Shown here: piece by piece, positions 24,567-45,842 of the stretch | Position numbering within the stretch: the first letter of the stretch is position 1 | How the letters are laid out: each line of letters begins with the position of its first letter | DNA from: Flavobacteriales bacterium | GTDB lineage: Bacteria; Bacteroidota; Bacteroidia; Flavobacteriales_F; PHOS-HE28 | NCBI GenBank assembly: GCA_024103275.1 | Contig: JAGFIV010000080.1 | Coordinates: 1-57,591, forward strand | Length of the DNA stretch: 57,591 nt | Direction of reading: 5' to 3' | The notes under the pieces: generated by a model | What the model saw: only the letters and a program-made list of their open reading frames with translations | The model's database searches: none | Told to the model about the DNA's origin: nothing | Made by a program: the position numbers and the translations under genes

Positions 24567-24629
24567 TACTGCGTGCCGATCTGTACACCCAATGGAAGCT
24601 GGTGGTCCAGGGCTATATTGAGCACCATA

Positions 24630-27600
24630 ATGCGTAAGGCACCATGGGCAACAAGAAGTGGGCTGGTCTGCTTGGCGCTAATGGCCTCGCCCCCTTCTCC
24701 CGCACAATTCGGCATTGGGCACGTGGAGCGCCTTTCGGTGGAAGAGGGGCTAAGCAACGGGGTGGTCTACAATCTGTTGCAGGACGGCCGCGGCTTCCTT
24801 TGGATCGCCACCGGCAACGGGCTGAACCGCTATGACGGCACCGAAGTGGTACAGTACTTCGCCACCGGGGACAGCTTGGGGCCACCGGACAACAGGATCA
24901 CCAGCCTGGTCCAACTGGATACGGGGCATCTGCTATTGGGGACCGAGCAGGGCTTGGCCACGGTCGAGCTGGCCACTTCCGTATTCCGCACCGAGCCCTG
25001 GCCTTCCCTCCCGGACAACCCGGCACGCGACCACCGCGTGCATCTCCTGGCACGGGATACCCGGGGCCAGATCTGGGCCTGCACGCCCCATGCGGTCCAT
25101 CTCTTCGACAGCACACTGGCACCGATCGAGGTTTTCCGAACGCAACCCGACCCCGCAGCCCACCGCTTCCAGAATGTCTTCAAAATAAGCCCCCTCCCCT
25201 CGGGCGAGGTACTGCTCTGGTTGCACGACGGCAGTATCTGGCAGTGGATCCCGGGAGCCCGGGTACTCGAACCGCTGGAAGAGGGTGACCCGGCCGGGTT
25301 GGACTTCTTGCTCGGTGGCCATTACGCATCAGTCACCTTGGTGGACGGGCGCTACCTCGTCCGGCTCAAGGGTGAAAAGATCCTGGTGAAGGACCTTCGT
25401 TCCGGTTGGCTGGGTGAATGCGACCTGCCCGGGCTGAAGGGCGGAAGCATGAACTTCATGGCCGGTACGTGGGGGCCCGCATTTGCCATCAGTTCCTCGA
25501 CACAGGGCCTATTCGTGTTCAACCTGGCCCCGGATGGATCCGGGGGGGTAGCCGTGGAACAAGCAGCTCTGCGGCTGCCCCATACTCCAGCTGGCATAGC
25601 CTATCAGGATGGCGAGGCCAATATCTGGCTCACCAACGGTTACCTAGGGCTTCTGAAGGTGGCCAGGGAAAAGCAACTGTTCAAGCATTGGGCCTTGCCC
25701 AGCCCGGAGGATGGCCGACCGGCCCCGGGGGAAACCAGCTGCCTGATGCCTTTGGGGACATCCCTGCTGGTAGGCACCAGTGAGGGATTGCTGGAGGTGG
25801 ACACCGCCACGGGCGGGATGCGACACTTCAAGGTAACGGACCAGCCCGGCTTCGGCAATATCATTTGGAACTTCCGGCGGGCCGACGAGCAGGCCCTGTG
25901 GGTAGGGACCCAGGTAGGCGTGGTCACCTTCAATCCGGTGGATGGGACATTGGGGCGCCTGCCACGGCCTCATCCCCCCGTTTTGGACAGCGTACCGATC
26001 ACCGTCCTGATGGAGGATGGCCGCCGACGCGTCTGGTTCGGCCTCGGGCTGGGAGGGGGGGTGGTGATGTACGATCCACGGGGCAAAAGTTACCGGACCT
26101 TCCCCGGCATAAGGGGCGGTTATCCGTACCGCTATCCCTTGCAAGCAGGTGAGGATGCCTCGGGCCGGGTCTGGTTCATCAGCGACGTGACCGGGAACCT
26201 CGTGAAATGGGACGACGGAGCCGATGGCTTCATACCGGTTGCCGTACCTGGGGTGCAGGGGGATGTCGACATCCAGACCGGCGGTTTTTTCCTGGACAAG
26301 GAAAAGAATGAGCTCTGGTACGGAGTGCGGCCCGCCAAGTTGGTGAGGTACCGGATCGATGACGGCAGCGCCTCGCTGTATGATGCCTCGGATGGATTGG
26401 GCAAGGGATGGATCTCTACCATCGCCGGCGACCAGTGGGGCCGCATTTGGCTGGGCACCACCGCGGGCATCTCCTGCTTCGACCCGGACATGGGCCATGT
26501 GATCCACTATTCCCTGTCGGACGGTCTTGCGGCCACGGACTATTCCAGTTCGTTCTATGACCGGGCCCGCAACAGGATGTACATGGGGGCCACCGGCGTG
26601 TTGACTGCCTTCAGCCCACCGGTATCACCGAGGGACAACCGGCCCATGCCGATCTACCTGACCGGCCTGACGGTGAACAACGATGTGGTGACCCTGCCAC
26701 GCAATGGCCGGATCCAGCTAAAGGCCTGGCAGAACAACCTGACCGTGGCGTTTACGGGGGTGAACCTGGCCAACGGCAATGAGAATCGCTACCAGTACCG
26801 CCTAGGCCAAGAGGATTGGACCTCTCTGGAACACCAATCGTCGATCCGTTTCGCCAGCCTGAAACCCGGTCCATACCAACTGGAGGTGCGGGCGGCACGC
26901 AAGCATGGTGAATATGGCCCGGCTACACAGGTGCTGCATTTTACCATCCGGCCTCCCTTTACTGCCACCGCCTGGTTTTATGCCTTGCTCATGGCCGTGA
27001 CCTTGGGCCTGGGCTATGCCTGGCATCTGCACCGCCTGAGGCAATGGCGGCGGCTGGAGGCCGTTCGCAGCCGCATCTCGCGCGACCTGCACGACGAGAT
27101 CGGTTCGCGGCTCACCAACATCAATCTCATGGGCCAGATAGCCGATACCGCCGGCAACGCCGACGCGAAAAGCGGCCTGCTGCGGCAGATCCAAGAGGAA
27201 AGCCTGCAGATCTCCCGTGCCATGCGGGACATCATCTGGAGCATCGATCCCGATAATGATTCGATGGGCAACACCCTGCCCAGGATGGTCTCCCACGCCT
27301 CACAGCTGCTGGAGCCGAGGGGTATCACCGTTGAAGCCGACGTGGATGACCTGGGGCAGATCCGCCTGGACATGGAAGCGCGGCGCGACCTGTTCCTGAT
27401 CTTCAAGGAGTGCATCCACAATATCATCAAACACTCCGGGGCGACGCAGGTGGCGATCAGGGCAAAAACGCACCCGGGCGGCTTCCTCCTGGAGGTGGAG
27501 GATGACGGCAAGGGCTTCGACCCGCATGGCTCCCATCCGGTGAGCGGCCTGCGGTACATGCGGCAGCGGGCGGAGAAGCACCGTTGGGTCCTGCTCGTGG

Positions 27601-27653
27601 AAAGCGCGCCCGGCAAGGGTTCAACGATTTCCCTCACGTTCAAGGGCGGATGA
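24630..27653 (+). CDS. Sensor histidine kinase with two-component propeller and Y_Y_Y domain
   Basis: 1007 residues. A signal sequence (SGLVCLALMASPPSPAQ) leads a periplasmic double-propeller sensor made of Reg_prop-type repeats (DGRGFLWIATGNGLNRYDG, QWGRIWLGTTAGISCFD). A Y_Y_Y domain follows (NRYQYRLGQEDW, RFASLKPGPYQLEVRAAR), then one transmembrane helix (FYALLMAVTLGLGYAWHL). The HisKA_3 domain has SRDLHDEIGSRLTN (phospho-His about residue 821), and the ATPase domain carries NIIKHSGA and EVEDDGKGFD. It lacks a fused receiver, so it should phosphorylate the LuxR-type regulator encoded 82 bp downstream. The ligand is unknown; related kinases sense glycans or cell-envelope cues. Confidence 0.92.
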   Translation: MRKAPWATRSGLVCLALMASPPSPAQFGIGHVERLSVEEGLSNGVVYNLLQDGRGFLWIATGNGLNRYDGTEVVQYFATGDSLGPPDNRITSLVQLDTGHLLLGTEQGLATVELATSVFRTEPWPSLPDNPARDHRVHLLARDTRGQIWACTPHAVHLFDSTLAPIEVFRTQPDPAAHRFQNVFKISPLPSGEVLLWLHDGSIWQWIPGARVLEPLEEGDPAGLDFLLGGHYASVTLVDGRYLVRLKGEKILVKDLRSGWLGECDLPGLKGGSMNFMAGTWGPAFAISSSTQGLFVFNLAPDGSGGVAVEQAALRLPHTPAGIAYQDGEANIWLTNGYLGLLKVAREKQLFKHWALPSPEDGRPAPGETSCLMPLGTSLLVGTSEGLLEVDTATGGMRHFKVTDQPGFGNIIWNFRRADEQALWVGTQVGVVTFNPVDGTLGRLPRPHPPVLDSVPITVLMEDGRRRVWFGLGLGGGVVMYDPRGKSYRTFPGIRGGYPYRYPLQAGEDASGRVWFISDVTGNLVKWDDGADGFIPVAVPGVQGDVDIQTGGFFLDKEKNELWYGVRPAKLVRYRIDDGSASLYDASDGLGKGWISTIAGDQWGRIWLGTTAGISCFDPDMGHVIHYSLSDGLAATDYSSSFYDRARNRMYMGATGVLTAFSPPVSPRDNRPMPIYLTGLTVNNDVVTLPRNGRIQLKAWQNNLTVAFTGVNLANGNENRYQYRLGQEDWTSLEHQSSIRFASLKPGPYQLEVRAARKHGEYGPATQVLHFTIRPPFTATAWFYALLMAVTLGLGYAWHLHRLRQWRRLEAVRSRISRDLHDEIGSRLTNINLMGQIADTAGNADAKSGLLRQIQEESLQISRAMRDIIWSIDPDNDSMGNTLPRMVSHASQLLEPRGITVEADVDDLGQIRLDMEARRDLFLIFKECIHNIIKHSGATQVAIRAKTHPGGFLLEVEDDGKGFDPHGSHPVSGLRYMRQRAEKHRWVLLVESAPGKGSTISLTFKGG

Positions 27654-27679: not shown

Positions 27680-27705
27680 GAAAACCACATGAACATGGAA
27701 TTGCC
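27680..27705 (+). promoter_or_regulatory. 26-bp shared motif, copy 1, at the response-regulator promoter
   Basis: The segment begins GAAAACCACATGAACATG and ends AATTGCC, and matches 30776-30801 at 25 of 26 positions (mismatch at 27698). It contains an imperfect dyad ACATG-AA-CATG and ends at the TTG that would be the -33 element. A transcription-factor site is likely. Confidence 0.6.
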
Positions 27706-27730
27706 TTCATGGCCGCGGCCGGTAGCTTTG
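27701..27730 (+). promoter_or_regulatory. Promoter of the response-regulator gene (TTG, 19 bp, TAGCTTTG)
   Basis: TTG at 27701-27703 and TAGCTTTG at 27723-27730 are separated by 19 bp, as expected for a Bacteroidota -33/-7 promoter. The ATG at 27736 lies only 5 bp after the -7 box, so the mRNA would be nearly leaderless. Confidence 0.6.
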
Positions 27731-27735
27731 TTCCC

Positions 27736-28365
27736 ATGCCCTTGAGGATCATCCTATTCGAAGACAACGTGGGGCTCCGGCATTCCATGCGCACCCTGCT
27801 CAACGGGGTTGACGGTTATGCCGTGGTGGGCGACTTCGGCGACTGTTCGACGGCGCGACAGGTTACTGAGGAGCTGCAGCCGGACATCGTGATCATGGAC
27901 ATTGACATGCCGAAAGTGAATGGCATCGAAGGGCTGCGGATCATCAAGGAGGCGAAGCCTGATACAGCCATCATCATGCACACGGTGTTCGAGGATGACG
28001 ACAAGCTTTTCGACAGCCTGTGCGCGGGCGCCAACGGCTATCTGCTGAAGAACACCTCGTACGGCAAACTGATCGAGGCCCTGGAAGAGGTGCGCAACGG
28101 AGGTGCGCCCATGTCACCTTCGGTGGCGCGCAAGGTGCTGCATTCCTTTCAGAGGCCGCAGCCCCGTGACAAATACGGGCTTTCACCCAGGGAATTGGAT
28201 GTGATGCAGTGCTTGGTGAAGGGATACAGCTATAAGATGATCGCAACGGCGCTGTTCATCAGTTTGGCCACCGTGCAGGCCCACATCCGGAACATCTACG
28301 CCAAGCTGCACGTGAACTGCGGGCGCGAGGCCGTGGTGATCGCGCTGCGCGACCGCATCGTTTGA
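27736..28365 (+). CDS. LuxR/NarL-family response regulator
   Basis: 209 residues. Receiver domain (LRIILFEDNVGLRHSMR, phospho-acceptor Asp55 in IVIMDIDMPKVNG, conserved Thr and Lys in MHTVFEDDD and GYLLKNTS) followed by a LuxR-type HTH (LSPRELDVMQCLVKGYSYKM to FISLATVQAHIRNIYAKLHV). It is the likely partner of the propeller kinase directly upstream. The motif over its own promoter recurs at the 30.8-kb operon, so autoregulation and control of that operon are plausible inferences. A perfect GC stem at 28369 follows. Confidence 0.93.
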   Translation: MPLRIILFEDNVGLRHSMRTLLNGVDGYAVVGDFGDCSTARQVTEELQPDIVIMDIDMPKVNGIEGLRIIKEAKPDTAIIMHTVFEDDDKLFDSLCAGANGYLLKNTSYGKLIEALEEVRNGGAPMSPSVARKVLHSFQRPQPRDKYGLSPRELDVMQCLVKGYSYKMIATALFISLATVQAHIRNIYAKLHVNCGREAVVIALRDRIV

Positions 28366-28368
28366 ACG

Positions 28369-28382
28369 GCGGGCAAGCCCGC
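28369..28382. terminator. Short GC hairpin between convergent genes
   Basis: GCGGGC-aa-GCCCGC forms a perfect 6-bp stem in the 25-bp gap between the response-regulator gene and the GEVED protein gene. The loop is very small and no U-tract follows, so function as a terminator is tentative. Confidence 0.35.
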
Positions 28383-28390
28383 ACGGCCGG

Positions 28391-30577
28391 TCAGTGCTTC
28401 ACGAAGCGCAACCGGGCCACCGCCCGCTCCTGGGCATCCCATACCTGCATGATGTAGATGCCCGGTGCAAGCCCGCCGATGTGGACCGCGCCGCCCGGCG
28501 GCGCCTCCATCACACGGCGGCCCGTCAGGTTGAGCACCTCCAAACGTACCAGTCCCTGCTTCGGACCCATCAGTTCGATCCGGTCATGCGCGGGATTGGG
28601 GACCAACCGGAATGACTCCGACGCCTGTGCGGCCAGCCCGGTACCGAAATCCACCTGCACGCTGTAGTCTTCGGCTTGGCCGTATCCGATCATGGCACAG
28701 GGATCAAGGGGCACTTCGTCCCAGTTCTTGATCACGCGCATGCGCGTGATCCCGATGGGCGCATCGGCGGGCACGGTGACCATGGCCGTGATCACGTTGT
28801 TGCATGAACTGTTGGTGAGGCTGCCAATCGTTACAGTGGCCTCGAAAACGCTGTCCTGGTCCCAATCAAAGAAGGCCACGACGTGGTCCGTGAACTCGCC
28901 ATCGGTGTTGCCGGTAACGGAGATCGGGTAGGTGGCACCACGCTGTACGTGGGCAACGATGGAGGTGAAATTTTCCAGCATCGGGCTTCCACCCGCCACC
29001 GGCGAGCTCTCGTTGTCGATATCCGCGAATGTGACGCTGCAAATGGGCAACACATTGTTCCCGCCCTGCCCGCCTGCCAGGCCGATCGGCGAGCAGTAAT
29101 GGGGCGGGTTCACATAGATGCTGTAGTCCTCCGCCTGGCCAAAACCGTAGGAGCTGCACGGATCAGTGGGCCAGGATCCAAAGTTTTTGACGATGCGCAT
29201 GCGTGTAACCCCCATCACGGCATCCGGGGGCACCGTGATGTCCATGGGGGCGGTGCTGCCGCATTCCACGTCGGTGATGCTGCCCACCTGCACCGCTGTT
29301 TCGAAGCTGCCGTTGCGGTCCCAATCGAAGAAAGCGGTGATGTAGGTGGTGAACGGCCCTGCCGTATTGCCCGACACGGTGATGGGATAGGTCCGCCCCG
29401 GGTCCACGCTGCCGGCGATGTGGGTGAAGTCTTCCAGGGCCGGGTCCGTCGCCGTGGCAGGGCTGTCGTGGTCAATGCCCGCAAAGGTCACGTTGCAGAT
29501 CGGTTCCACCCAGTTGATGTTGAACCCCGTGCAATATTCCGGTGTTGAGGGAGCCGAGACATGGACGGTGTAGTCTTCCGCCTGGCCGTAGGCATAAGTG
29601 CCGCATGGGTTCGTGGGCTGCGCACCGAAGGCCTTGACGATCCGCATACGTGTGATCCCCAAGGTGGCATTGGGCGGCACCGTGATCACCGCTTCCACGG
29701 AGCCACAGGATCCATTTTGTATGCTCCCGATGTCTTCGGCCGTTTCGTAGGTCCCGTCCTGGTCCCAGTCAAAGAAGGCGGTGATGTAGTTGGTGTAGTT
29801 GCCGGCCGTATTGCCTGACACGATGATGGGGTAGCTCCGCCCCTGCTCCACCACGGCCATGTACCCGGGCCCATCGGCCCACCACGGAACACCCGGTGAT
29901 TGGGTGAAGTCCTCCACGGCGGGGCTTCCATTCACCCCGGGGCTGGACGAACTGTTGATCCAGGAGAAGTAGACGTAGCAGATCGGCTCCACATTGGTGG
30001 TGATCTGGAATTCCGTGCAGTACCATGGCAGGGAGGGCTCCACCACGTGCACGCTGTAATCCTCCGCCTGGCCGTAGTAATAGGCCCCGCAGGGGTCCAT
30101 GGGTTCGTCATCATAATTCTTGATCACGCGCATGCGGGTGGTTCCCAGCGCGGCATTGGCAGGCACCGTTACATAGTCAAATGCGGCATTGTTGCAAACG
30201 GCATTCGACATGCCTCCGATCCACTGGGCCGTCTCGAACACACCGTCCTGGTTCAAATCGAAAAAGACCGTGACCGCATTATAAAAATCACCCTTGGTGT
30301 TCCCGTATACCAGGATGGGATAGAACCGGCCCCGCTCCACCGTGGCAGTCTGGGCGGTGAAGTCCTCCCAGTCGGACATCGTTGGCACATCCCCGGGGCT
30401 ATCATGGTCCAACCCGGCAAAGGAGACCTTGCAGATTGGCTCGACCACGTCGAATGTCGGGGTGCAATACTGTGCCACGGCAGTGTTGCACAGCACGAGC
30501 GCCAGCGGCCAGGCCAGGGATCCGCGACGGCGATCCCGGAAAGCGTTCGGCAAGAGGGTAGGTAATGGGGTATTCAT
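28391..30577 (-). CDS. T9SS-exported protein with four GEVED repeats
   Basis: 728 residues. A signal peptide (LAWPLALVLCNTAVAQ) is followed by four successive units of about 145 residues. Each contains a Cys near its start (EPICKVSFAGLDHDSP and similar), a segment like FFDWDQDGTYETA, VTVPANAALGTTRMRVIK and a GQAEDYSVHV end, the mark of GEVED domains. The last part is a T9SS type A sorting domain (FRLVPNPAHDRIELMG, LEVLNLTGRRVME, GLAPGIYIMQVWD). The protein should be displayed or released at the cell surface; its role is unknown. It sits on the opposite strand between the two copies of the shared 26-bp motif. Confidence 0.88.
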   Translation of the reverse strand: MNTPLPTLLPNAFRDRRRGSLAWPLALVLCNTAVAQYCTPTFDVVEPICKVSFAGLDHDSPGDVPTMSDWEDFTAQTATVERGRFYPILVYGNTKGDFYNAVTVFFDLNQDGVFETAQWIGGMSNAVCNNAAFDYVTVPANAALGTTRMRVIKNYDDEPMDPCGAYYYGQAEDYSVHVVEPSLPWYCTEFQITTNVEPICYVYFSWINSSSSPGVNGSPAVEDFTQSPGVPWWADGPGYMAVVEQGRSYPIIVSGNTAGNYTNYITAFFDWDQDGTYETAEDIGSIQNGSCGSVEAVITVPPNATLGITRMRIVKAFGAQPTNPCGTYAYGQAEDYTVHVSAPSTPEYCTGFNINWVEPICNVTFAGIDHDSPATATDPALEDFTHIAGSVDPGRTYPITVSGNTAGPFTTYITAFFDWDRNGSFETAVQVGSITDVECGSTAPMDITVPPDAVMGVTRMRIVKNFGSWPTDPCSSYGFGQAEDYSIYVNPPHYCSPIGLAGGQGGNNVLPICSVTFADIDNESSPVAGGSPMLENFTSIVAHVQRGATYPISVTGNTDGEFTDHVVAFFDWDQDSVFEATVTIGSLTNSSCNNVITAMVTVPADAPIGITRMRVIKNWDEVPLDPCAMIGYGQAEDYSVQVDFGTGLAAQASESFRLVPNPAHDRIELMGPKQGLVRLEVLNLTGRRVMEAPPGGAVHIGGLAPGIYIMQVWDAQERAVARLRFVKH

Positions 30578-30854
30578 CAGGGGTTCCATTTATTGATCGG
30601 GTCTGGTGCCCATGCGTTCCCGCCCAGGCGGATAAGTGCGGCATTGGCGGGCGAAGGTTCGGCTTGCCTTCAGGGGAATCAATCGCAGGGATATGTGATT
30701 TTGTGCGTACCGCCGAGGCAGGCGGGCCATCCATCCGCAAGCGGGTATTCCGCAGGGTGCGGCCATTGTCCAAGGGAAAACCACATGAACATGTAATTGC
30801 CCGGCTGGGATTGCAGGCCAACCTTCGCCACCATCGGACCTGGCCGATCCCGTT
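30578..30854. other. Divergent control region between the GEVED gene and the surface operon
   Basis: 277 bp. It contains copy 2 of the shared motif (30776-30801) and a downstream -7-like box AACCTTCG at 30820-30827, 20 bp after the TTG at 30797. Nothing else was recognised. Confidence 0.5.
30776..30801 (+). promoter_or_regulatory. 26-bp shared motif, copy 2, at the surface-operon promoter
   Basis: Same sequence as 27680-27705 except T at 30794. Here the dyad is perfect on both arms (ACATG-AA-CATGT). The motif ends at TTG 30797-30799, followed after 20 bp by AACCTTCG, so it overlaps the -33 element exactly as in copy 1. The ATG of the operon is at 30855. Confidence 0.6.
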
Positions 30855-32606
30855 ATGCGACTTAGCCTGCCTCTTATCCTGTTCTTCTGGTGCTGGGCCG
30901 GTCTCACCGCCGTCCGCTTGCAGGCACAGGACCTGGGCAACCTCAAGGGCCAGAAGCCGGTAACGCTCCACGGCAGCCTTTCCGCCGGCTTCAACTACTA
31001 CAGCACGGCCTCGGCGGGCACCGGCAACTTCCAGGGCTATGGCTTCGGCAACTCGCCGTCCTACTTCTTCCAAGCCAACCCGGTGCTATCCATCTACGGC
31101 TTGGCCCTGCCCATGAGCCTGCTGATCGCCAGCCAGGACAAGCAGTACAGCCTGCCCTTCAACCGCTTCGGCCTGAGCCCCTATTACAAATGGGCCAAGC
31201 TGCACCTGGGGTGGCGCTCGCTGAACTTCTCCCAGTTCACCTTGGGCGGCCAGCAGATGCTCGGGGCCGGCTTTGAGCTGACCCCGGGCAAGCTCAAGGC
31301 CTCGTTCATGTACGGCAGGTTCAACAATGCCATCACCGACATCTCGCTGTACAACAACCTGAACAACGCCACGCCCATCTTCCTGCGCAAGGGCTATGCC
31401 GCGCGCCTGGGCTACGGTTCCACGGCCCACTTCATCGAGCTTTCATACCTGCAGGCGGAAGATGACCTGCACTCGGTGAAAGGCATTGCCCTGGACAGCC
31501 TGCCGGCCATGCCCGCGGCCAACCAGGCGGCCGGGCTCAAGGGCCAGGTGACCCTGCGCAAGAAGCTCATCATCCATGCCGATGCGGGCGCCAGCTACTA
31601 CATCCGCAACATCGCCTCGCCCCTGCGCGAGACCGACGACCCGTGGGTGCGCTATGCCGTCTTCCCGCCCCGGTTCAGCTCCCGCATCGCCTTCGCCGGA
31701 GAGGCCGGGATGCGCTACCGTATGCGCGGCGGCAACCTGCGGCTCACCTACCGGCGCATTGACCCCGACTACCGCTCCATGGGGGCCTTCTATATGCAGA
31801 CCGACCTGGAGCAGGTGACCGCAGGATTCGACCAGGCCTTCCTCAAGCGCAAGGTGTTCCTGCGCGCCGACCTGGGCCTGCAACGCAACAACCTGTACAA
31901 CACCGCCGCCAGCAACAGCCGCAGGACCATCGGCAACATCAACCTCAACATCTCCCCCTCCCAAGCCTTCGGCATCGGCATCCAGTATTCCAACCACGGG
32001 ATCTCCCAACAGATCATCCCCCAGCTCCAAGATCCCGCCACGGTGGTGCGCTACGATTCGGTGCTCATCAGCCAGGTCAACCAGTCCATCGCCATCAGCC
32101 CGCGCCTGATGCTCAACCGCGAACGCCCCGTGCAGCACACGATCAACATGCAGGCCTCCATGCAATCCCTGCGCTCAGGCAATGAGACCTACGCCAGCCA
32201 GGAATACTCCTCCAACATGGGGAAACTCACCTATGTAACAGCCTTCACCGGGCGCAAGATCAACCTGAGCAACTCCCTGAACTATTTCAGCACCCGGTCC
32301 ACCGGTGCCCGATCGGCCACGCTCGGCTACAACCTGGGGCTGAGCAAGCAATTCCTGCCCGATACCAGCAGGGCCCCACTGATCAATGCGGTCACCCTTT
32401 CGCTGTACGGCGGCTACTTCGCCACCAGCCTCAACGACCGGCCCACCGGCCACACCATAACGGCCAACCCCGCATTGACCATCACCTTCCTGAAGCGGCA
32501 CTCCCTTCAGCTCAACGCCAACCATACCGCTTCCAGGAACAAGAGTGCCGCCATCACCCAGCGCAACCAGTTGACCTTCTCAGCGCGATACAATCTTTCA
32601 TTCTGA
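30855..32606 (+). CDS. Outer-membrane beta-barrel protein of the surface operon
   Basis: 583 residues. A signal peptide (LPLILFFWCWAGLTAVRLQAQ) leads a chain of alternating amphipathic strands (LHGSLSAGFNYYSTAS, RNQLTFSARYNLSF at the end with the terminal Phe of barrel proteins), about 22-26 strands by eye. No plug, TonB box or known transporter domain was recognised. Its stop overlaps the start of the giant exoprotein gene (ATGA), so the two are tightly coupled. It may export, anchor or assemble the proteins encoded downstream; this is inference. It is not a PorP/SprF-like protein as far as I can tell. Confidence 0.72.
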   Translation: MRLSLPLILFFWCWAGLTAVRLQAQDLGNLKGQKPVTLHGSLSAGFNYYSTASAGTGNFQGYGFGNSPSYFFQANPVLSIYGLALPMSLLIASQDKQYSLPFNRFGLSPYYKWAKLHLGWRSLNFSQFTLGGQQMLGAGFELTPGKLKASFMYGRFNNAITDISLYNNLNNATPIFLRKGYAARLGYGSTAHFIELSYLQAEDDLHSVKGIALDSLPAMPAANQAAGLKGQVTLRKKLIIHADAGASYYIRNIASPLRETDDPWVRYAVFPPRFSSRIAFAGEAGMRYRMRGGNLRLTYRRIDPDYRSMGAFYMQTDLEQVTAGFDQAFLKRKVFLRADLGLQRNNLYNTAASNSRRTIGNINLNISPSQAFGIGIQYSNHGISQQIIPQLQDPATVVRYDSVLISQVNQSIAISPRLMLNRERPVQHTINMQASMQSLRSGNETYASQEYSSNMGKLTYVTAFTGRKINLSNSLNYFSTRSTGARSATLGYNLGLSKQFLPDTSRAPLINAVTLSLYGGYFATSLNDRPTGHTITANPALTITFLKRHSLQLNANHTASRNKSAAITQRNQLTFSARYNLSF

Positions 32607-35600
32607 TGAAGCCCATGCCCACCATCCTCCGCCATGCCCTGCACAGCATCCTGCTGCTGGCCGTGTGCAGCACCCAGGCCACGGCCCAGAACTATCCGAT
32701 CACCCTGCAGGTGCAGCTCATCCCGCCTTATTCCGCCTTTCTGTCGGACTATCTGCAGAAGTCGATCATCTCGTTCACCAACCAGGGCCAACAACCCTTG
32801 GACGTGTACATCCGTGGCCGGTTCGAGAATGACCGCGGGCAGTTCGTGGAAACATCGCCCTACAGCTACTCCAACATCCCGATACATGTACCGGGCATGC
32901 AGACCGTGGTGGTGCAGGGGAGCCAGCTGGACGAGGGTTACCTGGACGTCAACCACCTGAACACGAACCTGGCCGACGAGGACTACGACAACTTCAGGCG
33001 CTTGGGGCAGTTGCCCGAAGGCTACTACACTTTCTGCATCTATGCCTACCGCCGCGATGCCAACGGCAACTACCAGCCTGTAAGCGACCCCTTGGCCATG
33101 GGCTCGTGCTTCCCCTTCCCGATCACCCACGTGCTGCCGCCGGTGATCACCACCCCGGTCACGGGTGACACCATTACGCCCAGCCCGACGCAACAGGTCA
33201 ACATCAGCTGGACCTCGCCCATGGGCTTCAACCCCGGCACAATTACCGTTTACGACCTCTACCTGGTGAAGGTGCTGCCGGGCGAGGACCCCCAGGTATC
33301 CATGGGCAATGCCGTGCAATACAATGCCGGGATCTTCATCAAGCAGCCGGGGATCATGATGAACAACTTCCAGTTCACCAACCTCGGCGGCTTCAACCTG
33401 GAAGAAGGCGGCACCTATGCGTTGATGGTGCAGGCGCGCGACCCGAACGGGCAAACCGCTTTTGAGAACAACGGCCGCAGTGTCACGGAAACATTCGTTT
33501 ATGGGGGCACGGTGCCACCAGCGGGCACGGTGACCGCCATCACCGAGGGCAGCTGTTCATGCGCGGTGGACGTTGCCGCCCTGGACCAGGCCAACAACAC
33601 CGCTTCGCTGGCCCCGGGCGGCAGCTTCACCATGGCCACGCTCACGGTGAAGATCGGCACCGTATCGGTGAGCGGCGGGCTGGCCTCGGGCACCGGCACC
33701 GTGCTGGTGAAACAGGTGCCCGTGCAGGTGACCTTCAGCGGCGTGGCCGTGAACAATGCCGGGGTGGCCATTGCGGGCAGCGCGAAGGCCAAGACGGACA
33801 ATGCGTTCGGGTTCCTGGAGAACAACCCGCTGCCGTCGATCTCCACCTCGGACTACGACTCGTTCATGGACCGCATCTCCGACTACAACCTGGATGCGGT
33901 GCTGGCCGGTGCCGGGGTGATGCTCCCCTTCGGGCTGCACACCTTCGGTGCACCCGATGCGGTGAACGTGGCCGTCGTGGCCTTGGACATCACCCCCGCA
34001 AAGGCCACCTACGATGCCATTGCGGCCGTGCAGCTGGCCGATGCGAACCACGTGCTTTCGCTGTTGGCAAAGGACGTGTGTTTCTCCAACACCTCCGTGA
34101 TGTGCGGGGATGCCCTGTTCGTGCTGGCCCAGGACCTGGAGCTGCCCGGCATCCAGCTGAAGCTGCACGGCTTCCGGTCCGAAGCCGAACCGGGCACCTT
34201 CGTGCGCTATGCCAACGGTGAACTGACCAAGTTCCACATCCGCGCGGAGTATGCCTTCCCGGCGGCGTTGATCACCAAGCTGGACGGCGGGGCGGCCACG
34301 GCCCTGCTGGATGCCGACGCCACCAGCTGGAGCGACTGGACCGCAACGGTATCGCTGGACCCCTTCCGCCTGCCCGCCTTGGACGGCGTGGAGTTCCGCT
34401 TGGCCCAGGGGGCCTTCTACGACCACTCCACCCTGCGCAACCCCACCGGCATGCCCTCCTCCTTCAGCGAACCCCTGCTGGCGGAAAAGAATGCCGAGAT
34501 CGGCACCGCCCTGTGGACCGGCTTCTACCTGCCCACGGCCACGGTGACGTTGCCCGCTATCGTATCCGCTGGGCCGCAAGGCAGCGGCCGGATCGAGATC
34601 GGCGCCACCCACCTGCTGGTGGACGGGTCCGGCCTGAGCGGCATGGTGGGCGCCACCAACGTGATCAGCATCGGCAACGGTTCCCTGGGCGGCTGGTACT
34701 GCTCACTGGACCATGTGGGCATCACCCTGCTCAACTCCTCGTTCATCGGCGGAGGCATGAACGGCCAGGTCATCCTGCCCTTCTCCGACAAGGACAAACA
34801 GGCCAGCCGCATCAACTATTCCTGCACCCTCTCAGCGGACAACAACGGCGGGGGCCTCACCTACCAGTTCATCGCGCAGCAGCAACAGGACATCGACTTT
34901 TCCGCTTGGTGGGCGCGCATCAACATCAACCACTGCAGCATCGAGGTGAGCAACCGCAGCGGCAGCACCGTGGCCTCGGCAGACCTGAGCGGGAAGCTCA
35001 GCATACAGGGCGAGGTGGAAGGTTACCGGGTGGGCCTTGACCTGATCACCATCGAGCACCTGGTGGTGAGCACCGCAGCGCCACACGTGAAGGTGCAGAA
35101 CGCCGTGGCGGGACTAAGCTCTCCCCAGCATTTCATGGCCGATTTCCCGATCAGCAACCTAAGCGTGGAGCCCAAGATCAACGGCAGCAACGTGGGCTTG
35201 CAGATCGGCTTCAAAATGACGCTGAGCGACCTGGCGAACCAGATCCTGCCCGATGCCTCCTCCAAGTTCACGGTGAGCGCCAACGTGCTCGGTGGCACAC
35301 GCCCCGTATGGCAGCGCGCCGACTTCCACCTCGACCAGGTGTGCATCAACGGCGATCTCGCCGGGGTGGTCCACATCAAACAAGGCTGCATTGATTTCTT
35401 CAAGAACGATGCCGTCTTCGGGGACGGCATCTCCGGCTTCCTCCGCGCCTCTTTCGCCGGCCTGGACGCCGTGGAGGTGGACTGCACCGCCAAATTCGGC
35501 CATACCTCGTTCAACTACTGGTACTTCGATGCCTCGGTGACCATCCATCCCGGCATTCCCGTGGCACCCGGCATCAGCATCAACGGTTTCGGAGGTGGTG

Positions 35601-38224
35601 CCTGGTACAATTTGGTGCGCACCGGGAACAGCAATCTGGCGGCCAAGGATTACTTCAACAACATGGCGCAATACCAATTGGGTGCATACCGCCCCCAAAG
35701 CGGTACGCTGGGCTTCAAGGCCAAGCTGGGCATCAGCACGTCGGACGGATACATCTTCTCCGGCTATGGGGAGGTAGGCATCACGTTCAATACGGCGGGG
35801 CCGATCAGCGTGAACGCCCTGGACGGCACCTTCTACGCCCAGGTCCTTAAGGCCACGGAAGGGCTGGCACAAGACGCGAAGGCCCCGGTGCAGGGCATCA
35901 TTGAATGGCACGCCGGCATTGCCGACCGGGTATTCAGCCTCGATGGAAGGGTGGACCTGAATTTCCCATGGGGCGGCACCCCGATTGTATCAGGGTCCGG
36001 CACGTTCGCCTTCCTGGCCGACGTGGGGAACCAGAACTACTACATCAAGTTCGGCGACCCCGCGGAGGAACGCATCAAGGTCTCCATCCTGGACCTGGCC
36101 ACGCTAAAGGGCTACTTCATGGCCGGCAACCGGATCGATGCCGCAATCCCGGACCCCGACCCGGCAATCGTGGATGTCAGCAAGCTCAGTAACTACCACC
36201 GGGTCCAGTACGACCCGGAGGCCGGCGGAATGGTGATGGGGGCCAGCTTCCAGTTCCGGAAACACATCCCTTTCACGATCTTCTTCGCAGAGGTGGAGCT
36301 GGGCGCGGGATTCGATGTGAGCTTCGCCCGGCACACCCGAGGCTGTGAAGACCATCCGGCCCCGCCCGGAGTCAACGGATGGTATGCCATCGGGCAGGTA
36401 TATGCGCGTGTTTCCGGTGCCTTGGGCGTGGAGGTGGACCTGCCGATGGTGGGGCACAAGAAGGTAAAAGCGGCGGAGATCGGGGCCTCAACCGTGCTGG
36501 GAGGCGGCCTTCCCGACCCCTATTGGTTTGACGGCCACCTGTATCTCTATTACAATGCCTTGGGCGGCCTGCTGGAAGGGCATGTCAACTTCAAGGTTTC
36601 CATCGGTGACAAGTGCGTGCCCGACCAGAAAGTGTTCACCATGCCCTTGATCAGCGAGCTCAAGCCTGCGGATGGGTCCACCAAGATCCCGCTCAACGCC
36701 AGCCCCGAGGCCGTGTTCAATTATCCGGTGGAACGCTCGTTCGAGATCGTGGTGATGGATGCCGATGGCATTCAGGTGGCACGCGACTTCCAGCTCAAGC
36801 TGTTGGAATGCAAGGCCACCGACTTGGAAAGCGGCAAAGTATATGCTGATTACTTCAACTTCACGAGCTACCCGGTCTTCCTGGACGATCGCCACACCGA
36901 CCTGGCCCTTGACCCGCAGGATGCGCTGAAGAGCCAGACGCGCTACCGGTTCGATGTGGCCGTGAAGGCGCAGGAGCGCAACGGCAGCAACTGGGTGGAC
37001 TGCACCTATGACGGCAGTCCGGTGAGGGAAAGCAGCTCCGTCACCTTCAAGACCGGCGACTGCAAGCTGGACGAGATCATCGCGGACCCGGGCTCACGGT
37101 TGGCCTCCTTCCCCTTCCCCAACCAGCGTTTCTTCCTGCAAGGCGATTCCCGGAAAGGGGCTGTCATCTTGGACAAGGCGTATGAATGCGCACAGGCACC
37201 CAATGAGAACTATGACCTCCTGGTGCGTTTCACCCCTGCGGACGGCTCCGGCCCCAAGGAGGTGCCCATCGTCCTCAACGGAAGCCGGTACCTGACCTTC
37301 GATATCCCGGCATTGCCCAATGCCACCATCGTGCGCACCGAGGTGATCAAGCGCAGGAAGCTCAGCAGCGGCGATTCCTTCCAGATCATGTCAAACAGCG
37401 TGCTGGCCACCGGCATCAACCAGCATTTTGCGCAAATGACCCAGCCGCTGCAGGTTGGCGGCGGCCAGGGGTTTTCCACCGGGAGCATGACGGCCATGAC
37501 ATCCGCCACGATGATCTCGCAACAAGCCGGCGGCACGCCTTCCTTCAACACAGGCTTTACTCTGCCCGCGTCCGCCGTGGCCCAGCTCGCCGGCATATCC
37601 GGCACAGCCCAATCTTCCGCACCCCAACTCATTGTGCACACGCCGAGCATCTCGACCGGCCCGGCCCAGCTGATGACCAACCAGAAGCTGAGGCTTACCG
37701 ACCGCATCCTGGACGAAGTCTTGTACAAATACCACTTCCGGACGAGCCGCTATAACACCTTGGCCGCCAAAATGAATTCATTCAGCTATAGCTCGCCCAT
37801 TGGCAGCTCGTGGGAATTCTATTCCATAAAGGCATCAATGGCCGAAGGATTCGATGCTTTCGACATAAACGGCTTTGTCAGCAACCGTTACCATAATGGG
37901 AATAGGGTGTATTTCTCCGTGCCATTGGTGACTTTCCGGGAAGCCAGGCAGGGTAACAACTGGGCTGACCAGTACGCCAGGCCCTGTATCTATGAACAAT
38001 ATAGGAATGCCATGGTCAGTATTTGGGATGTTCGTTATGCGCACGGGGTCAGCTATCAGGAAATACAAAGGGCGGGCCTGGAGTGCGATCCTTGGAGTGA
38101 TTGCTTCCCCCGGCGCCCGATCCTCATCCAAAGCATAGAGCCGTCACTGAGCCCCGGGGAAATTTTCCAGGCCTATCCAATAAATCTGATCAGCCCTGCG
38201 CCCAGGGGTTCCTGGCTGTATTGA
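32606..38224 (+). CDS. Giant (1872-residue) exported TANFOR-like protein
   Basis: Signal peptide (ILLLAVCSTQATAQ) followed at residues about 28-180 by a TANFOR-like domain (YPITLQVQLIPPYSAFLSDY, RRLGQLPEGYYTFCIYAYRR, GSCFPFPITHVLPPVITTPV). An FnIII/Ig-like domain follows (about 180-300), then roughly 900 residues of beta-rich repeats of unknown fold. These include several stretches with HCSIEVSN, VEVDCTAKFG and KFKVSIGD-like strands. A Cys-containing Ig-like section (FTMPLISELKPADGST) comes next and a C-terminal region begins about residue 1560. There is no T9SS sorting domain. The last 170 codons are visibly AT-richer than the rest. TANFOR assignment is from remembered family features, not a search. 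It is likely a cell-surface or extracellular structural protein. Confidence 0.75.
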   Translation: MKPMPTILRHALHSILLLAVCSTQATAQNYPITLQVQLIPPYSAFLSDYLQKSIISFTNQGQQPLDVYIRGRFENDRGQFVETSPYSYSNIPIHVPGMQTVVVQGSQLDEGYLDVNHLNTNLADEDYDNFRRLGQLPEGYYTFCIYAYRRDANGNYQPVSDPLAMGSCFPFPITHVLPPVITTPVTGDTITPSPTQQVNISWTSPMGFNPGTITVYDLYLVKVLPGEDPQVSMGNAVQYNAGIFIKQPGIMMNNFQFTNLGGFNLEEGGTYALMVQARDPNGQTAFENNGRSVTETFVYGGTVPPAGTVTAITEGSCSCAVDVAALDQANNTASLAPGGSFTMATLTVKIGTVSVSGGLASGTGTVLVKQVPVQVTFSGVAVNNAGVAIAGSAKAKTDNAFGFLENNPLPSISTSDYDSFMDRISDYNLDAVLAGAGVMLPFGLHTFGAPDAVNVAVVALDITPAKATYDAIAAVQLADANHVLSLLAKDVCFSNTSVMCGDALFVLAQDLELPGIQLKLHGFRSEAEPGTFVRYANGELTKFHIRAEYAFPAALITKLDGGAATALLDADATSWSDWTATVSLDPFRLPALDGVEFRLAQGAFYDHSTLRNPTGMPSSFSEPLLAEKNAEIGTALWTGFYLPTATVTLPAIVSAGPQGSGRIEIGATHLLVDGSGLSGMVGATNVISIGNGSLGGWYCSLDHVGITLLNSSFIGGGMNGQVILPFSDKDKQASRINYSCTLSADNNGGGLTYQFIAQQQQDIDFSAWWARININHCSIEVSNRSGSTVASADLSGKLSIQGEVEGYRVGLDLITIEHLVVSTAAPHVKVQNAVAGLSSPQHFMADFPISNLSVEPKINGSNVGLQIGFKMTLSDLANQILPDASSKFTVSANVLGGTRPVWQRADFHLDQVCINGDLAGVVHIKQGCIDFFKNDAVFGDGISGFLRASFAGLDAVEVDCTAKFGHTSFNYWYFDASVTIHPGIPVAPGISINGFGGGAWYNLVRTGNSNLAAKDYFNNMAQYQLGAYRPQSGTLGFKAKLGISTSDGYIFSGYGEVGITFNTAGPISVNALDGTFYAQVLKATEGLAQDAKAPVQGIIEWHAGIADRVFSLDGRVDLNFPWGGTPIVSGSGTFAFLADVGNQNYYIKFGDPAEERIKVSILDLATLKGYFMAGNRIDAAIPDPDPAIVDVSKLSNYHRVQYDPEAGGMVMGASFQFRKHIPFTIFFAEVELGAGFDVSFARHTRGCEDHPAPPGVNGWYAIGQVYARVSGALGVEVDLPMVGHKKVKAAEIGASTVLGGGLPDPYWFDGHLYLYYNALGGLLEGHVNFKVSIGDKCVPDQKVFTMPLISELKPADGSTKIPLNASPEAVFNYPVERSFEIVVMDADGIQVARDFQLKLLECKATDLESGKVYADYFNFTSYPVFLDDRHTDLALDPQDALKSQTRYRFDVAVKAQERNGSNWVDCTYDGSPVRESSSVTFKTGDCKLDEIIADPGSRLASFPFPNQRFFLQGDSRKGAVILDKAYECAQAPNENYDLLVRFTPADGSGPKEVPIVLNGSRYLTFDIPALPNATIVRTEVIKRRKLSSGDSFQIMSNSVLATGINQHFAQMTQPLQVGGGQGFSTGSMTAMTSATMISQQAGGTPSFNTGFTLPASAVAQLAGISGTAQSSAPQLIVHTPSISTGPAQLMTNQKLRLTDRILDEVLYKYHFRTSRYNTLAAKMNSFSYSSPIGSSWEFYSIKASMAEGFDAFDINGFVSNRYHNGNRVYFSVPLVTFREARQGNNWADQYARPCIYEQYRNAMVSIWDVRYAHGVSYQEIQRAGLECDPWSDCFPRRPILIQSIEPSLSPGEIFQAYPINLISPAPRGSWLY

Positions 38225-38248
38225 CCGCAACCCTAAATCACCTTCCGA

Positions 38249-38899
38249 ATGAGCGCATCACACAACCTTCTTGCCTCACTGCTGTCCTTGTCCCTGGTTT
38301 CCACAGGAGTTGGTCAACCCGTGATCAGTTCCGGAAACCTTACTTCGTTCGCCATGCTCAACGGACCTTCAAATGCCAATATGGTAACTGGAGCCCTCGT
38401 ACAAGCTTCTCAAAACCCTTACATGATCGGCACAATTCAAGCCGCCGGCCCTTCACAAGGAATCATCGATGTGCTCCTATCCAAAGAGGTGACTCTCCAA
38501 TATGCCGTCCCATTTTGGGCGGCGATGGACAAGCTGCGGCTGATGATCGAGCTGAACGCGAGGATCGCGCGCATCATGGATAACCAACAAGAATTGCGCC
38601 TAAAGGCAATCGCTAATTACCAGAACTCTGATTATGTCAAGGCTTGCAATGCGTTCATCCAGTTTGACCAACAACTCCTGGACATGTTGCAACCCGTGCT
38701 GGATGACCTGTCAGGGGCTTGTGCCACGCTGGAATTCAAGGAATTCCACACCAAGGTACATGCGGAGTATATGTACAAGGATGTCCTTACGGGAGCTGGC
38801 TTGATCATGGCAACCGATGGAAATGCCGAGCTCCACAACGTACCGCGCAGCTCGCTGGAAGGCCCCGTGGTGGGCACCAAACTGATCTATAAGAAATAA
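38249..38899 (+). CDS. Small exported helical protein of the surface operon, function unknown
   Basis: 216 residues. A signal peptide (LLASLLSLSLVSTGVGQ) is followed by a mostly helical protein (FWAAMDKLRLMIELNARIAR, IQFDQQLLDMLQPVLDDLSG) and a short beta end (GPVVGTKLIYKK). No family recognised. Base composition is lower in GC than both flanks and matches the last part of the preceding gene. It lies 24 bp after the giant protein and 15 bp before the FnIII gene, so it belongs to the same transcript. Confidence 0.75.
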   Translation: MSASHNLLASLLSLSLVSTGVGQPVISSGNLTSFAMLNGPSNANMVTGALVQASQNPYMIGTIQAAGPSQGIIDVLLSKEVTLQYAVPFWAAMDKLRLMIELNARIARIMDNQQELRLKAIANYQNSDYVKACNAFIQFDQQLLDMLQPVLDDLSGACATLEFKEFHTKVHAEYMYKDVLTGAGLIMATDGNAELHNVPRSSLEGPVVGTKLIYKK

Positions 38900-38914
38900 C
38901 CGGTCCTACGCGTG

Positions 38915-41017: not shown

Positions 41018-41053
41018 CGCTCTTCATCGGCAACCACCCGAACTATCGCCAAC

Positions 41054-42349: not shown

Positions 42350-42830
42350 GCCGGACCGGAGGTGCGGGAGATGGGGGGCAAGAAGAGTAATTGGGGTAAC
42401 GAGGGTAACGAGGGCAACAAGCATGGAGCGGTCTGTTCCCCTTATATGGAAGCGACCGGCCTTCGCGCATTCTGCCTTCGCAGAGCCGCCCCTCCCGTGC
42501 TAAGCCAGGATGGGGCGATGGTGCATGGGTATGCCGCTCCTGCACGGCCCCGGCACAGGCCCGTCAATCGCCAGCTTCTTCATGTTGGCCCCGTGGTGGC
42601 GGTAATACCAAGCAGCCGTCCACGCCCGGATCACGTGGCACCCTCTGGCCTCCCGGGAAGGCAGCGGAAGGTAAAAACAGGAGGTCTTGCCTTTCCCCGC
42701 CCCGTTGCCCGCTCCCAGCCCTTCTTCAGACCGCCATGTGCGTCCCCGGCCTCCGCCGATCCGATCAATGGAGCGGAAAATTGCGGACCTTGGTGACACG
42801 GAACGCGAACACCAGCATTCGGACCGGGCC
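42350..42830. other. Intergenic region, 481 bp
   Basis: Contains a 9-bp tandem repeat near its start (42394-42420) and GC-rich sequence with low-complexity pieces. No promoter box, RNA or gene was convincing. The kinase frame is open from 42687. Confidence 0.4.
42394..42420. repeat. 9-bp tandem repeat GGGTAACGA, three copies
   Basis: Two perfect copies of GGGTAACGA and a third GGGCAACAA follow each other in intergenic DNA. It belongs with other short low-complexity repeats in this window (51841, 52850, 57137). Confidence 0.7.
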
Positions 42831-45800
42831 ATGGTAGGCAGGGAAGCCACCCTCTTCTTGTTCGCCTTGACGACCTTGATGCCATTCGTGGCACGCGGCC
42901 AGCCCGCCGATCTGCGGCTGGAGCACCTGACCACCGCTGATGGGTTGAGCAGTTCGCTGCTGACGGACATCGCCCCGGATGAACGCGGCTTCCTGTGGAT
43001 TGCCACCCTCCATGGGCTGAACCGGTATGACGGCAGGGAAATCGTGCAGTTCCATACCGGCCATGAAGAGGGTGCACTCCCAGCCGAGGGCATCCACCGC
43101 CTGCTTTCCCCGGGGGATGGCCGCCTGCTGGCCGGCACGGACAAGGGCTTGGCGATCCTGGACCTTACTGGCCGCTGCCAGGCGGTGATCCACCTTGATC
43201 CCGGGCGGGCAGGACAGCCATACGAGGACCAGGTGCTGACCCTGAACCGGGATGCGCTGGGCCAATACTGGGCCGGCACCCCTACCACGCTTTATCGTTT
43301 AGACAGCAGCCTCGTGGTGCAAGAAGCATTCAGGACACAGGACGATCCCATCCGCAGCCGGAACAGGAACCTCCACGACATCATCACCCTGCCCTCCGGC
43401 GAGCTCTTGTGCAGGCTGCGTTCCGGGTGGCACTACTGGTCGCCCGGGAGCAAGGGCCTTGAACGCCTGGAAGACGGCGCGGGCGTCAAATATGACTTTT
43501 TGCCAAAGGCGGGGCTCTATATCAGCGGCCTGATCGGGAGCCGGTACTTGGTCAGCCTGGCGAACGGGGGGCTTTCCGTCCATGACCTCGCAGATGGCCG
43601 AACATCCATCCTGCCCATCACCGGGCCATCGACGCAACCAAACATTTGTGGCATCTGGGGCCACGAATTCGCGGTGGCCCAGAATGAGGGCGTTTCCATT
43701 TATACGCTGGAGGACGATGGGCATAAGGTGTCGCTCCGGCAGCGTGCAAGCGGACTTCTGCCCGGCTCTGTCGTCAGCATGGTGACACAGGACCGGGAAG
43801 GCAACTACTGGGTAGGGACCAACGGCGGGCTGGTGAAGGTGGCAGGAGGCGGGCAAGCTTTCCACAACCACGTGTTGTCCGGTGGCCCACAGGCCAATGA
43901 AGGAACCCTGGAGCCGATCGACGTCCTCGCCCACGGCCGGCACCTGTTCATCGGCACGAATGGCGAAGGATTCTTTCAGGTGGACCCGGCCACCGGTGAA
44001 CAGGTGCGATACACCATAGGGCCTGCCACCGACGGGCGGAACATCGTGTGGAACATCCGGGCGACGGAAAGCGGCGACACCTTGTGGCTGGGCACCCAAC
44101 AGGGCGTGGCGTATTACACCCTGCAAGGCCACCGCACAGGACGGTTGCCCGGAGACCACCCGGCCGTGTTGGACGCCGAGGCGATCACCCTCCAGTTCGA
44201 GGACAGCCGGCAGGGCGTCTGGTTCGGCATCGGCAGAAGCCAAGGTGCGGCCAGGCATGACCGGATCACCGGGGCGTTCCAATGGTATCCCTACGGCTCC
44301 AACGGCTACCCCTTCCTGTATCCCATGCAGGCCGGGGAGGATGCCCAAGGCAACCTGTGGTTCACCAGCGATGCCACCGGCAACCTGGTGGAATGGGACC
44401 ACCGGACCCGGCGGTTCCGTGTGGTTGAAGTCCCAGGCGTGGAAGCCACCATCAATATCCAGAGCGGCGGTTTCCTGCTCGACCGAAAGCGGAATGAAGT
44501 CTGGTACGGCATCCTCCCGGCAGGTCTGGTACGCTACGGGATCAACGATGGGGGAAGCACGGTCTTCGGGACCCGGAACGGCCTTCCGGGGGACAGGGTC
44601 AACAGCATCGCCATGGATGGCCACCGCCGCTTGTGGCTGGCCACGGACCAGGGGATCTCCTGCCTCGATGCCGCCACGGGCACCGTGGTCAATTACACGC
44701 GGTCCGACGGGCTGGCCGCCGTCCGCTACACCGCCATCCACTATGACCCCGTAGCGGACAGGATCAGCGCAGCTGGGCCGGGGACTTTGACCTGGTTCAC
44801 CGTTCCGGAGCAACTGACGGACGCCCGGACGCTGACGATCTGCCTGACCGGTGTGCAGGTGAACGGCAAGGCGGTCATGCTCCCGGGCAACGGACCATTG
44901 TCCTTGGGGCCCGATGAGGGCCATGTCAATGTCAAGTTCACCGCCGTGAACCTGTCCGATGGGCGGGAGAACCGCTACCAATACCGCCTGAACGAGGGGG
45001 AATGGTCCGACCTGGGCCACCTGCCGGAGATCCGGTTCGCAGGTATCAAGGCCGGCAGCTACCGCTTGGAGGCGCGCGCAGCCCGCAAGCTGGGTGCGTA
45101 CGGCCCCGCATCCACTTTACTGGAGTTCACGGTGCGGCCCCGCTTCACCAGCACGCCCTGGTTCTACCTGCTGGTGATGGGTGCGCTGCTGCTGATCGTT
45201 TGGGCCTGGTACGACCACCGGATCCGCAGCATCCGAAGGCTGGAGGCCATGCGGGCGCAGATCTCCCGTGACCTCCATGACGAGATCGGGTCGCGCCTCA
45301 CCAATATCAACATGATGAGCCAGGTGGTCAAGCGCGCATCGACCGGCGGGCGGCATGAACATGAGCTGCTGGGGAAGATCAGGGAGGAAAGCGAGGAGAT
45401 CACCCAGAACATGCGCGACATCATCTGGAACATCGACCCGCGGAACGACCAATTGGCGCTGGCCATGCCACGCATGCTCTCTTACGCATCCCAATTGTTG
45501 GAGTCCAGGAACATCACGGTGGAGGCTTCCATGGGCGACCTGGAGGGCATCCAGGTGGACATGGCCCAACGCAAGGACCTGATGCCGATCTTCAAGGAGG
45601 CCATCCATAACATCGTCAAGCATTCGGGCGCCACGGTCGTGCGGATCGGCGCGCAGGTGCAGGACAGCTGTTTCCACCTGGCGATCGAGGACAACGGAAA
45701 GGGATTCGACCCGGCGTGTGGCGCGGACGGCAATGGGCTGCGCAACATGAGGACCCGGGCCGCTGCCCATGGATGGGCCCTGCGGATTGAAAGCGGGCGC

Positions 45801-45842
45801 GGCCGAGGCACCTGTCTTTTCCTGGTGGTGCCGTTTACATGA
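42831..45842 (+). CDS. Second propeller/Y_Y_Y sensor histidine kinase, no adjacent regulator
   Basis: 1003 residues, clearly a paralogue of the kinase at 24630. Signal sequence (TLFLFALTTLMPFVARG), Reg_prop repeats (DERGFLWIATLHGLNRYDG, GHRRLWLATDQGISCLD), Y_Y_Y domain (NRYQYRLNEGEWSDL, AGSYRLEARAARK), a transmembrane helix (FYLLVMGALLLIVWAWYD), HisKA_3 (SRDLHDEIGSRLTN, His about residue 816) and an ATPase domain (NIVKHSGA, AIEDNGKGFDP). The ATG at 42831 starts the signal sequence; ATG 42768 is also in frame. No response-regulator gene follows, so it may share the regulator at 27736 or act with a distant one. Confidence 0.9.
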   Translation: MVGREATLFLFALTTLMPFVARGQPADLRLEHLTTADGLSSSLLTDIAPDERGFLWIATLHGLNRYDGREIVQFHTGHEEGALPAEGIHRLLSPGDGRLLAGTDKGLAILDLTGRCQAVIHLDPGRAGQPYEDQVLTLNRDALGQYWAGTPTTLYRLDSSLVVQEAFRTQDDPIRSRNRNLHDIITLPSGELLCRLRSGWHYWSPGSKGLERLEDGAGVKYDFLPKAGLYISGLIGSRYLVSLANGGLSVHDLADGRTSILPITGPSTQPNICGIWGHEFAVAQNEGVSIYTLEDDGHKVSLRQRASGLLPGSVVSMVTQDREGNYWVGTNGGLVKVAGGGQAFHNHVLSGGPQANEGTLEPIDVLAHGRHLFIGTNGEGFFQVDPATGEQVRYTIGPATDGRNIVWNIRATESGDTLWLGTQQGVAYYTLQGHRTGRLPGDHPAVLDAEAITLQFEDSRQGVWFGIGRSQGAARHDRITGAFQWYPYGSNGYPFLYPMQAGEDAQGNLWFTSDATGNLVEWDHRTRRFRVVEVPGVEATINIQSGGFLLDRKRNEVWYGILPAGLVRYGINDGGSTVFGTRNGLPGDRVNSIAMDGHRRLWLATDQGISCLDAATGTVVNYTRSDGLAAVRYTAIHYDPVADRISAAGPGTLTWFTVPEQLTDARTLTICLTGVQVNGKAVMLPGNGPLSLGPDEGHVNVKFTAVNLSDGRENRYQYRLNEGEWSDLGHLPEIRFAGIKAGSYRLEARAARKLGAYGPASTLLEFTVRPRFTSTPWFYLLVMGALLLIVWAWYDHRIRSIRRLEAMRAQISRDLHDEIGSRLTNINMMSQVVKRASTGGRHEHELLGKIREESEEITQNMRDIIWNIDPRNDQLALAMPRMLSYASQLLESRNITVEASMGDLEGIQVDMAQRKDLMPIFKEAIHNIVKHSGATVVRIGAQVQDSCFHLAIEDNGKGFDPACGADGNGLRNMRTRAAAHGWALRIESGRGRGTCLFLVVPFT

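Follow-up and report, generated by a model that had tools for sequence, protein, structure and literature searches.

The window, i.e. the whole stretch of 57,591 nucleotides analysed here, carries a gene for a response regulator of the NarL/LuxR type (27736..28365, plus strand), directly preceded by that of a histidine kinase, HK1 (24573..27653, start approximate, plus strand), with Reg_prop, Y_Y_Y, HisKA_3 and HATPase_c domains. The regulator combines a receiver domain (REC, PF00072, E 3e-23) with a GerE domain (PF00196, E 9e-17), both above cut-off, which is the NarL/FixJ architecture; its nearest solved relatives are VraR and NarL, the best PDB sequence match being VraR 5hev (E 1.7e-27), and its orthologues retain the aspartates D55 and D57 of the receiver. 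It is not a LuxR quorum-sensing receptor, as its N-terminus is a receiver and no autoinducer-binding domain was found, and the pair does not form a HTCS, HK1 ending in HATPase_c and the regulator being a separate GerE-type protein. A second kinase gene of the Reg_prop/Y_Y_Y type, HK2 (42687..45842, plus strand), has no adjacent regulator. In G020 and G034, two of the congener genomes (labelled Flavobacteriales/Bacteroidetes MAGs), the kinase beside the regulator shows 53% identity to HK2 versus 43-44% to HK1. HK2 is orthologous to this regulator-adjacent kinase, so that two kinases may feed the single regulator of the window.

Downstream of the regulator, five co-directional genes separated by gaps of 0-37 bp constitute a putative surface operon (30855-42349, plus strand). 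The first (30855..32606) encodes a 583-aa protein for which the Pfam search returned no family; its AlphaFold2 model is all-beta (mean pLDDT 72) and its Foldseek matches are outer-membrane barrels with low TM scores, pointing to an outer-membrane beta-barrel protein. It is followed by genes for a 1872-aa secreted protein of unknown family (32606..38224), a 216-aa protein with a signal-peptide-like start (38249..38899), a 701-aa fibronectin type III protein (PF00041, 38912..41017) and a GH5 cellulase-family protein (PF00150, 41054..42349). Homologues of the 583-aa barrel are present in 23 of the 45 genomes of the genus, often directly behind a paralogous NarL-type regulator (L161, L165, L167 and L168, among others), and two of the intergenic regions between such a regulator and the barrel homologue contain their own ACTCACGTGGTATTG-type site.

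A preliminary description of this DNA had reported a 26-bp motif shared by the promoters of the regulator gene and of the surface operon, and had proposed that the regulator binds it to control both. As claimed, the copies at 27680-27705 (GAAAACCACATGAACATGGAATTGCC) and 30776-30801 (GAAAACCACATGAACATGTAATTGCC) are identical at 25 of 26 positions, with a single-base difference, one lying between the HK1 and regulator genes and the other before the operon, and both contain the ACATG-NN-CATG dyad (CCACATG-AA-CATGGAA and CCACATG-AA-CATGTAA, respectively). Identity stops sharply at the motif edges, the flanks being unrelated (14/60 identical positions upstream and 23/60 downstream; no extended match by BLAST). 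One repeat-coding gene apart, the matches listed for the window include no other direct 26-mer pair with one mismatch or fewer, and eight Markov simulations of the window produced no pair of that closeness. When up to three mismatches were allowed, the window contained two occurrences of the 24-bp core, against 0 in 100 shuffles, and the 3.58-Mb genome likewise two (control 0), both in promoters, the genome scans being pattern searches over the 137-contig assembly with predicted gene starts. Many copies unrelated to promoters, the outcome that the preliminary description had named as contrary to its proposal, were looked for genome-wide and not found, close copies being restricted to promoters. 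The short ACATG-NN-CATG dyad alone was close to chance frequency (4 matches for 0.99 expected) and was dropped as evidence; the significance of the pair therefore rests on the full 24-26 bp and on their position.

Bacteroidota sigma-A promoters carry a TTG at -33, about 19-21 bp upstream of the -7 box. The latter has the consensus TAnnTTTG and is located at -12 to -5 (PMC9723704). At the regulator promoter, operator 1 (ACCACATG-AA-CATGGAATTG, 27684..27703, plus strand), a genome-unique sequence kept in orthologues, is a 7-2-7 dyad centred at 27692.5 and terminating in the -33 TTG (27701-27703), which is followed after 19 bp by a 6/6 -7 box, TAGCTTTG (27723..27730, plus strand). At the surface-operon promoter, operator 2 (ACCACATG-AA-CATGTAATTG, 30780..30799, plus strand) ends likewise in a TTG (30797-30799), with a weak 4/6 box, AACCTTCG (30820..30827, plus strand), 20 bp further on; both spacings are those previously given. 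We infer from this arrangement that the regulator transcript starts near 27735; the centre of the dyad is then at about -43, a short distance before the -33 TTG. On sequence geometry the dyad has the inverted halves of about 7 bp and the 2-bp spacing of NarL/FixJ operators, and related loci share this geometry. Readings of the motif as a hairpin or RNA element were set aside, since it lies upstream of the inferred start, and the minus-strand gene at 28391-30589 was rejected as a target of operator 2, since its strand showed no convincing TTG/-7 arrangement at the distance required.

The two sites of the preliminary description stand, but not as the full set, which includes a third, diverged copy overlooked there: operator 3 (ATCGTATG-AT-CATGCTATTG, 50656..50675, minus strand), where ATCGTATGATCATGCTATTG is separated by 20 bp from the -7 box AACTTTTG (50628..50635, minus strand). 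In a genome scan for the operator, 20 bp and a -7 box, the surface-operon site ranked first as an exact match and the third site second (50628-50671, minus strand, same contig, one mismatch; control 0). Two mismatches gave 6+4 matches in all for 2+0 in the control; these included the regulator's own site, recovered only at this level because its spacing is 19 bp, and the others look like background. The third site precedes a gene for a secreted GEVED protein with a Por_Secre_tail T9SS sorting domain (48425..50617, minus strand, ATG at 50617 or 50590), so that the regulon is predicted to have at least one further member in the window. This protein is 59-62% identical to the GEVED proteins of G020 and G034; in the promoters of the latter, ACCATATGTTCATGTGATTG or TCCATATGTTCATGTGATTG is separated by 20 bp from CACATTTG. 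Immediately ahead of this GEVED operator, both congeners also contain the HTH-only remnant of another copy of the regulator (63% identical; L071:9696-9929 and L072:11727-11972), which looks like a decayed duplicate. In the window, an SBBP beta-propeller gene with strong internal DNA repeats (45855-48314, minus strand) lies between HK2 and the GEVED gene.

In G020 and G034 the regulator is 71-72% identical to that of the window, and its gene has kept the site about 50 bp before the ATG, followed by TAGTTTTG or TAGCTTTG, within diverged flanks. Sites with no mismatch to the 20-mer were found in G018, G025 and G034, each before a gene for a secreted protein or a lipoprotein. Genus-wide matches to the loose 20-mer at two mismatches were rejected as mostly background, the control counts being of the same order, and only congener matches with 0-1 mismatch, or with a -7 box, were considered. 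A scan of the collection retrieved 80 regulator loci, of which 69 were inspected (Chitinophagaceae, Sphingobacteriales, Cytophagales and others). Most regulator genes in these 69 loci are preceded by a similar dyad that terminates in (A)TTG, 19-20 bp before TAnnTTTG; regulators at 61-64% identity have TAGCATR-NN-YATGCTATTG-like sites, and those at about 45-55% mostly ACCCAAAAGGGT-type dyads.

To compare these loci, 48 operators were annotated by eye from the upstream sequence, before the recognition helices were viewed, because an automatic best-dyad finder chose wrong palindromes in many loci. A second copy of the locus's own operator was present in 8 of the 48 loci with up to two mismatches (shuffled operators: 0 in 40 rounds), in 10 with up to three (null mean 0.125, maximum 2) and in 18 with up to four (null mean 1.1). 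The 11 additional copies within three mismatches all have the same strand as the regulator, and the majority follow closely after its gene. In the 12 second-site promoters examined, including L083, whose second site came from a separate strict pattern, the best -7-like match was invariably at offset 20. A good -7-like match at 19 or 20 was also observed in 36/48 regulator promoters, a figure that the choice of operators by eye may inflate; such inflation does not touch the second sites, which were found by sequence match. The genes behind the second sites include those for OmpA-type, GH5, T9SS-tailed and S74-type proteins and for lipoproteins; a single FAD oxidoreductase departs from this pattern. 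In L083 the copy precedes an operon with homologues of the 583-aa and 1872-aa proteins (31% identity for the latter), and in L113 and L114 the direct target is homologous to the GH5 protein of the window (30% identity, E 1e-47). The combination of an own operator with a copy at a neighbouring gene recurs in other phyletic groups, where the neighbour mostly encodes a secreted or outer-membrane protein. A distant regulator of G024 (38% identity) has its own operator, CCCTAATGAWCATGCTATTG, in three copies, before itself and before two secreted-protein genes (L200:1501-1516, L200:2200-2215 and L202:1501-1516).

The operator sequence varies with the recognition helix of the adjacent regulator, TVQ[AS]H going with CACATG, TVRGH with TAGCAT and TVKKHLQN with TTACCCA. 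Among 53 non-redundant regulators, operator distance and helix distance remained correlated given the receiver-domain distance (partial r 0.40, 0/2000 permutations), and the reverse partial correlation was 0.17; such partial Mantel tests leave some phylogeny in. No other argument speaks as strongly for the adjacent regulator as the probable binder.

Taken together, the promoter-only copies, their conservation in orthologues, the recurrence in other loci and the tracking of the helix make the model in which the regulator controls itself and the operon well supported computationally, the binding itself being predicted. We consider it highly probable that the regulator encoded at 27736 has the 20-bp core ACCACATG-NN-CATGNAATTG as its operator, through which it would activate its own gene, the surface operon and the GEVED gene. 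In the mechanism that we propose, HK1, and possibly also HK2, would phosphorylate the regulator, which would bind as a dimer to the 7-2-7 dyad next to the -33 TTG, with the dyad centre about 43 bp before the start. The bound dimer would most likely contact RNA polymerase and activate transcription in a class II-like manner, the predicted targets being the regulator gene, the five-gene surface operon (30855-42349) and the GEVED gene (48425-50617). Activation by the phosphorylated dimer is favoured with good confidence, since NarL activates E. coli yeaR-yoaG from an equivalent position, a single 7-2-7 site just upstream of -35 (PMC7419079).

The same regulator and sites could also serve repression, the dimer blocking the -33 region so that the regulator would limit its own synthesis and switch the operon off. 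The dyad does abut the -33 element. Moreover, the -7 box of the regulator gene is the consensus, TAGCTTTG, as expected of a promoter without need of an activator, so that constitutive activity held down by repression, and not activation, is conceivable there. However, the weak box of the operon (4/6) is what an activated promoter should have, a spacing fixed at 19-20 bp in constant orientation is needed more by activators than by repressors, and the precedent of NarL goes the other way; repression appears unlikely, though at the regulator's own promoter it is an alternative to be taken seriously. Still less probable is that a different factor, a NarL-type paralogue or a global regulator, binds the sites, the adjacent regulator being merely one target. 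G018 and G025 do have near-perfect sites with a best regulator match of only 46-48%, i.e. no orthologue of the 71% type, so that another regulator may read them there. The operator nevertheless tracks the recognition helix of the adjacent regulator beyond receiver-domain similarity, and a global factor would have many sites, whereas in the genome two close copies and a diverged third were found, and all three lie on this contig. A recent promoter duplication or a gene-conversion remnant devoid of regulatory role could account for 25/26 identity within about 3 kb, but hardly for identity confined to the motif, for its persistence across orthologous loci or for other loci with independently matched pairs of their own operator variants, and is very improbable.

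The proposed activation by the adjacent regulator from such a site has its closest known counterpart in NarL/FixJ control of E. coli yeaR-yoaG and ogt, with the same REC and GerE domains and a 7-2-7 inverted repeat centred near -43/-44 (PMC7419079). In contrast to NarL, the half-site here is CCACATG and not the NarL heptamer, it is built onto a Bacteroidota -33/-7 promoter, and the regulon apparently comprises three promoters on one contig whereas that of NarL is global. VraR/LiaR-type regulators are alike in domain architecture, but the kinase here has a large Reg_prop/Y_Y_Y sensor and the predicted targets are Bacteroidota surface proteins. To our knowledge, PorX is not a GerE-type regulator. 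PorXY/SigP, which controls the T9SS of Porphyromonas, resembles the present system in being a two-component control of surface secretion in Bacteroidota (PMC4800418); the predicted targets here are cargo and surface proteins, not the secretion machine. Bacteroidota HTCS share the large propeller-type sensor and the control of adjacent envelope or glycan genes, but in these the kinase, the receiver and an AraC-type DNA-binding domain are fused into one polypeptide, and the motifs are direct repeats (PMC3878776), whereas here the NarL-type regulator is separate from the kinase and its putative site is an inverted repeat. Within the open literature, which covers few subscription journals, no account of NarL-type operators from Bacteroidota was found. 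Judged from sequence, the locus would be a switch of a known kind, an autoregulated two-component system of the NarL type, whose Bacteroidota form seems not to have been described.

It is reasonably likely, with less confidence than for the operator itself, that the Bacteroidota NarL-type regulators beside Reg_prop/Y_Y_Y kinases form a self-labelled class, each with its own operator at -33 and the same operator marking a few neighbouring surface genes. Since operator and helix would co-evolve, the regulator's own promoter would give the binding code and predict the regulon. If this is true, (i) the target genes of such regulators are readable from sequence; (ii) a surface-operon family (outer-membrane barrel, giant secreted protein, GH5 enzyme) is tied to a defined sensor; and (iii) the pairs TVQ[AS]H/CACATG and TVRGH/TAGCAT are natural specificity switches for studying the evolution of regulator-DNA recognition.

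A further difference from NarL concerns the transcript: the inferred start at about 27735 is beside the ATG, so that the regulator mRNA is probably leaderless. In most loci the -7 box lies 3-9 nt before the regulator ATG (27723-27738 in the window; regulator promoters L079-L144), so that the regulator transcripts there look leaderless as well, although leaderless mRNAs represent only 5.5% in F. psychrophilum (PMC9723704).
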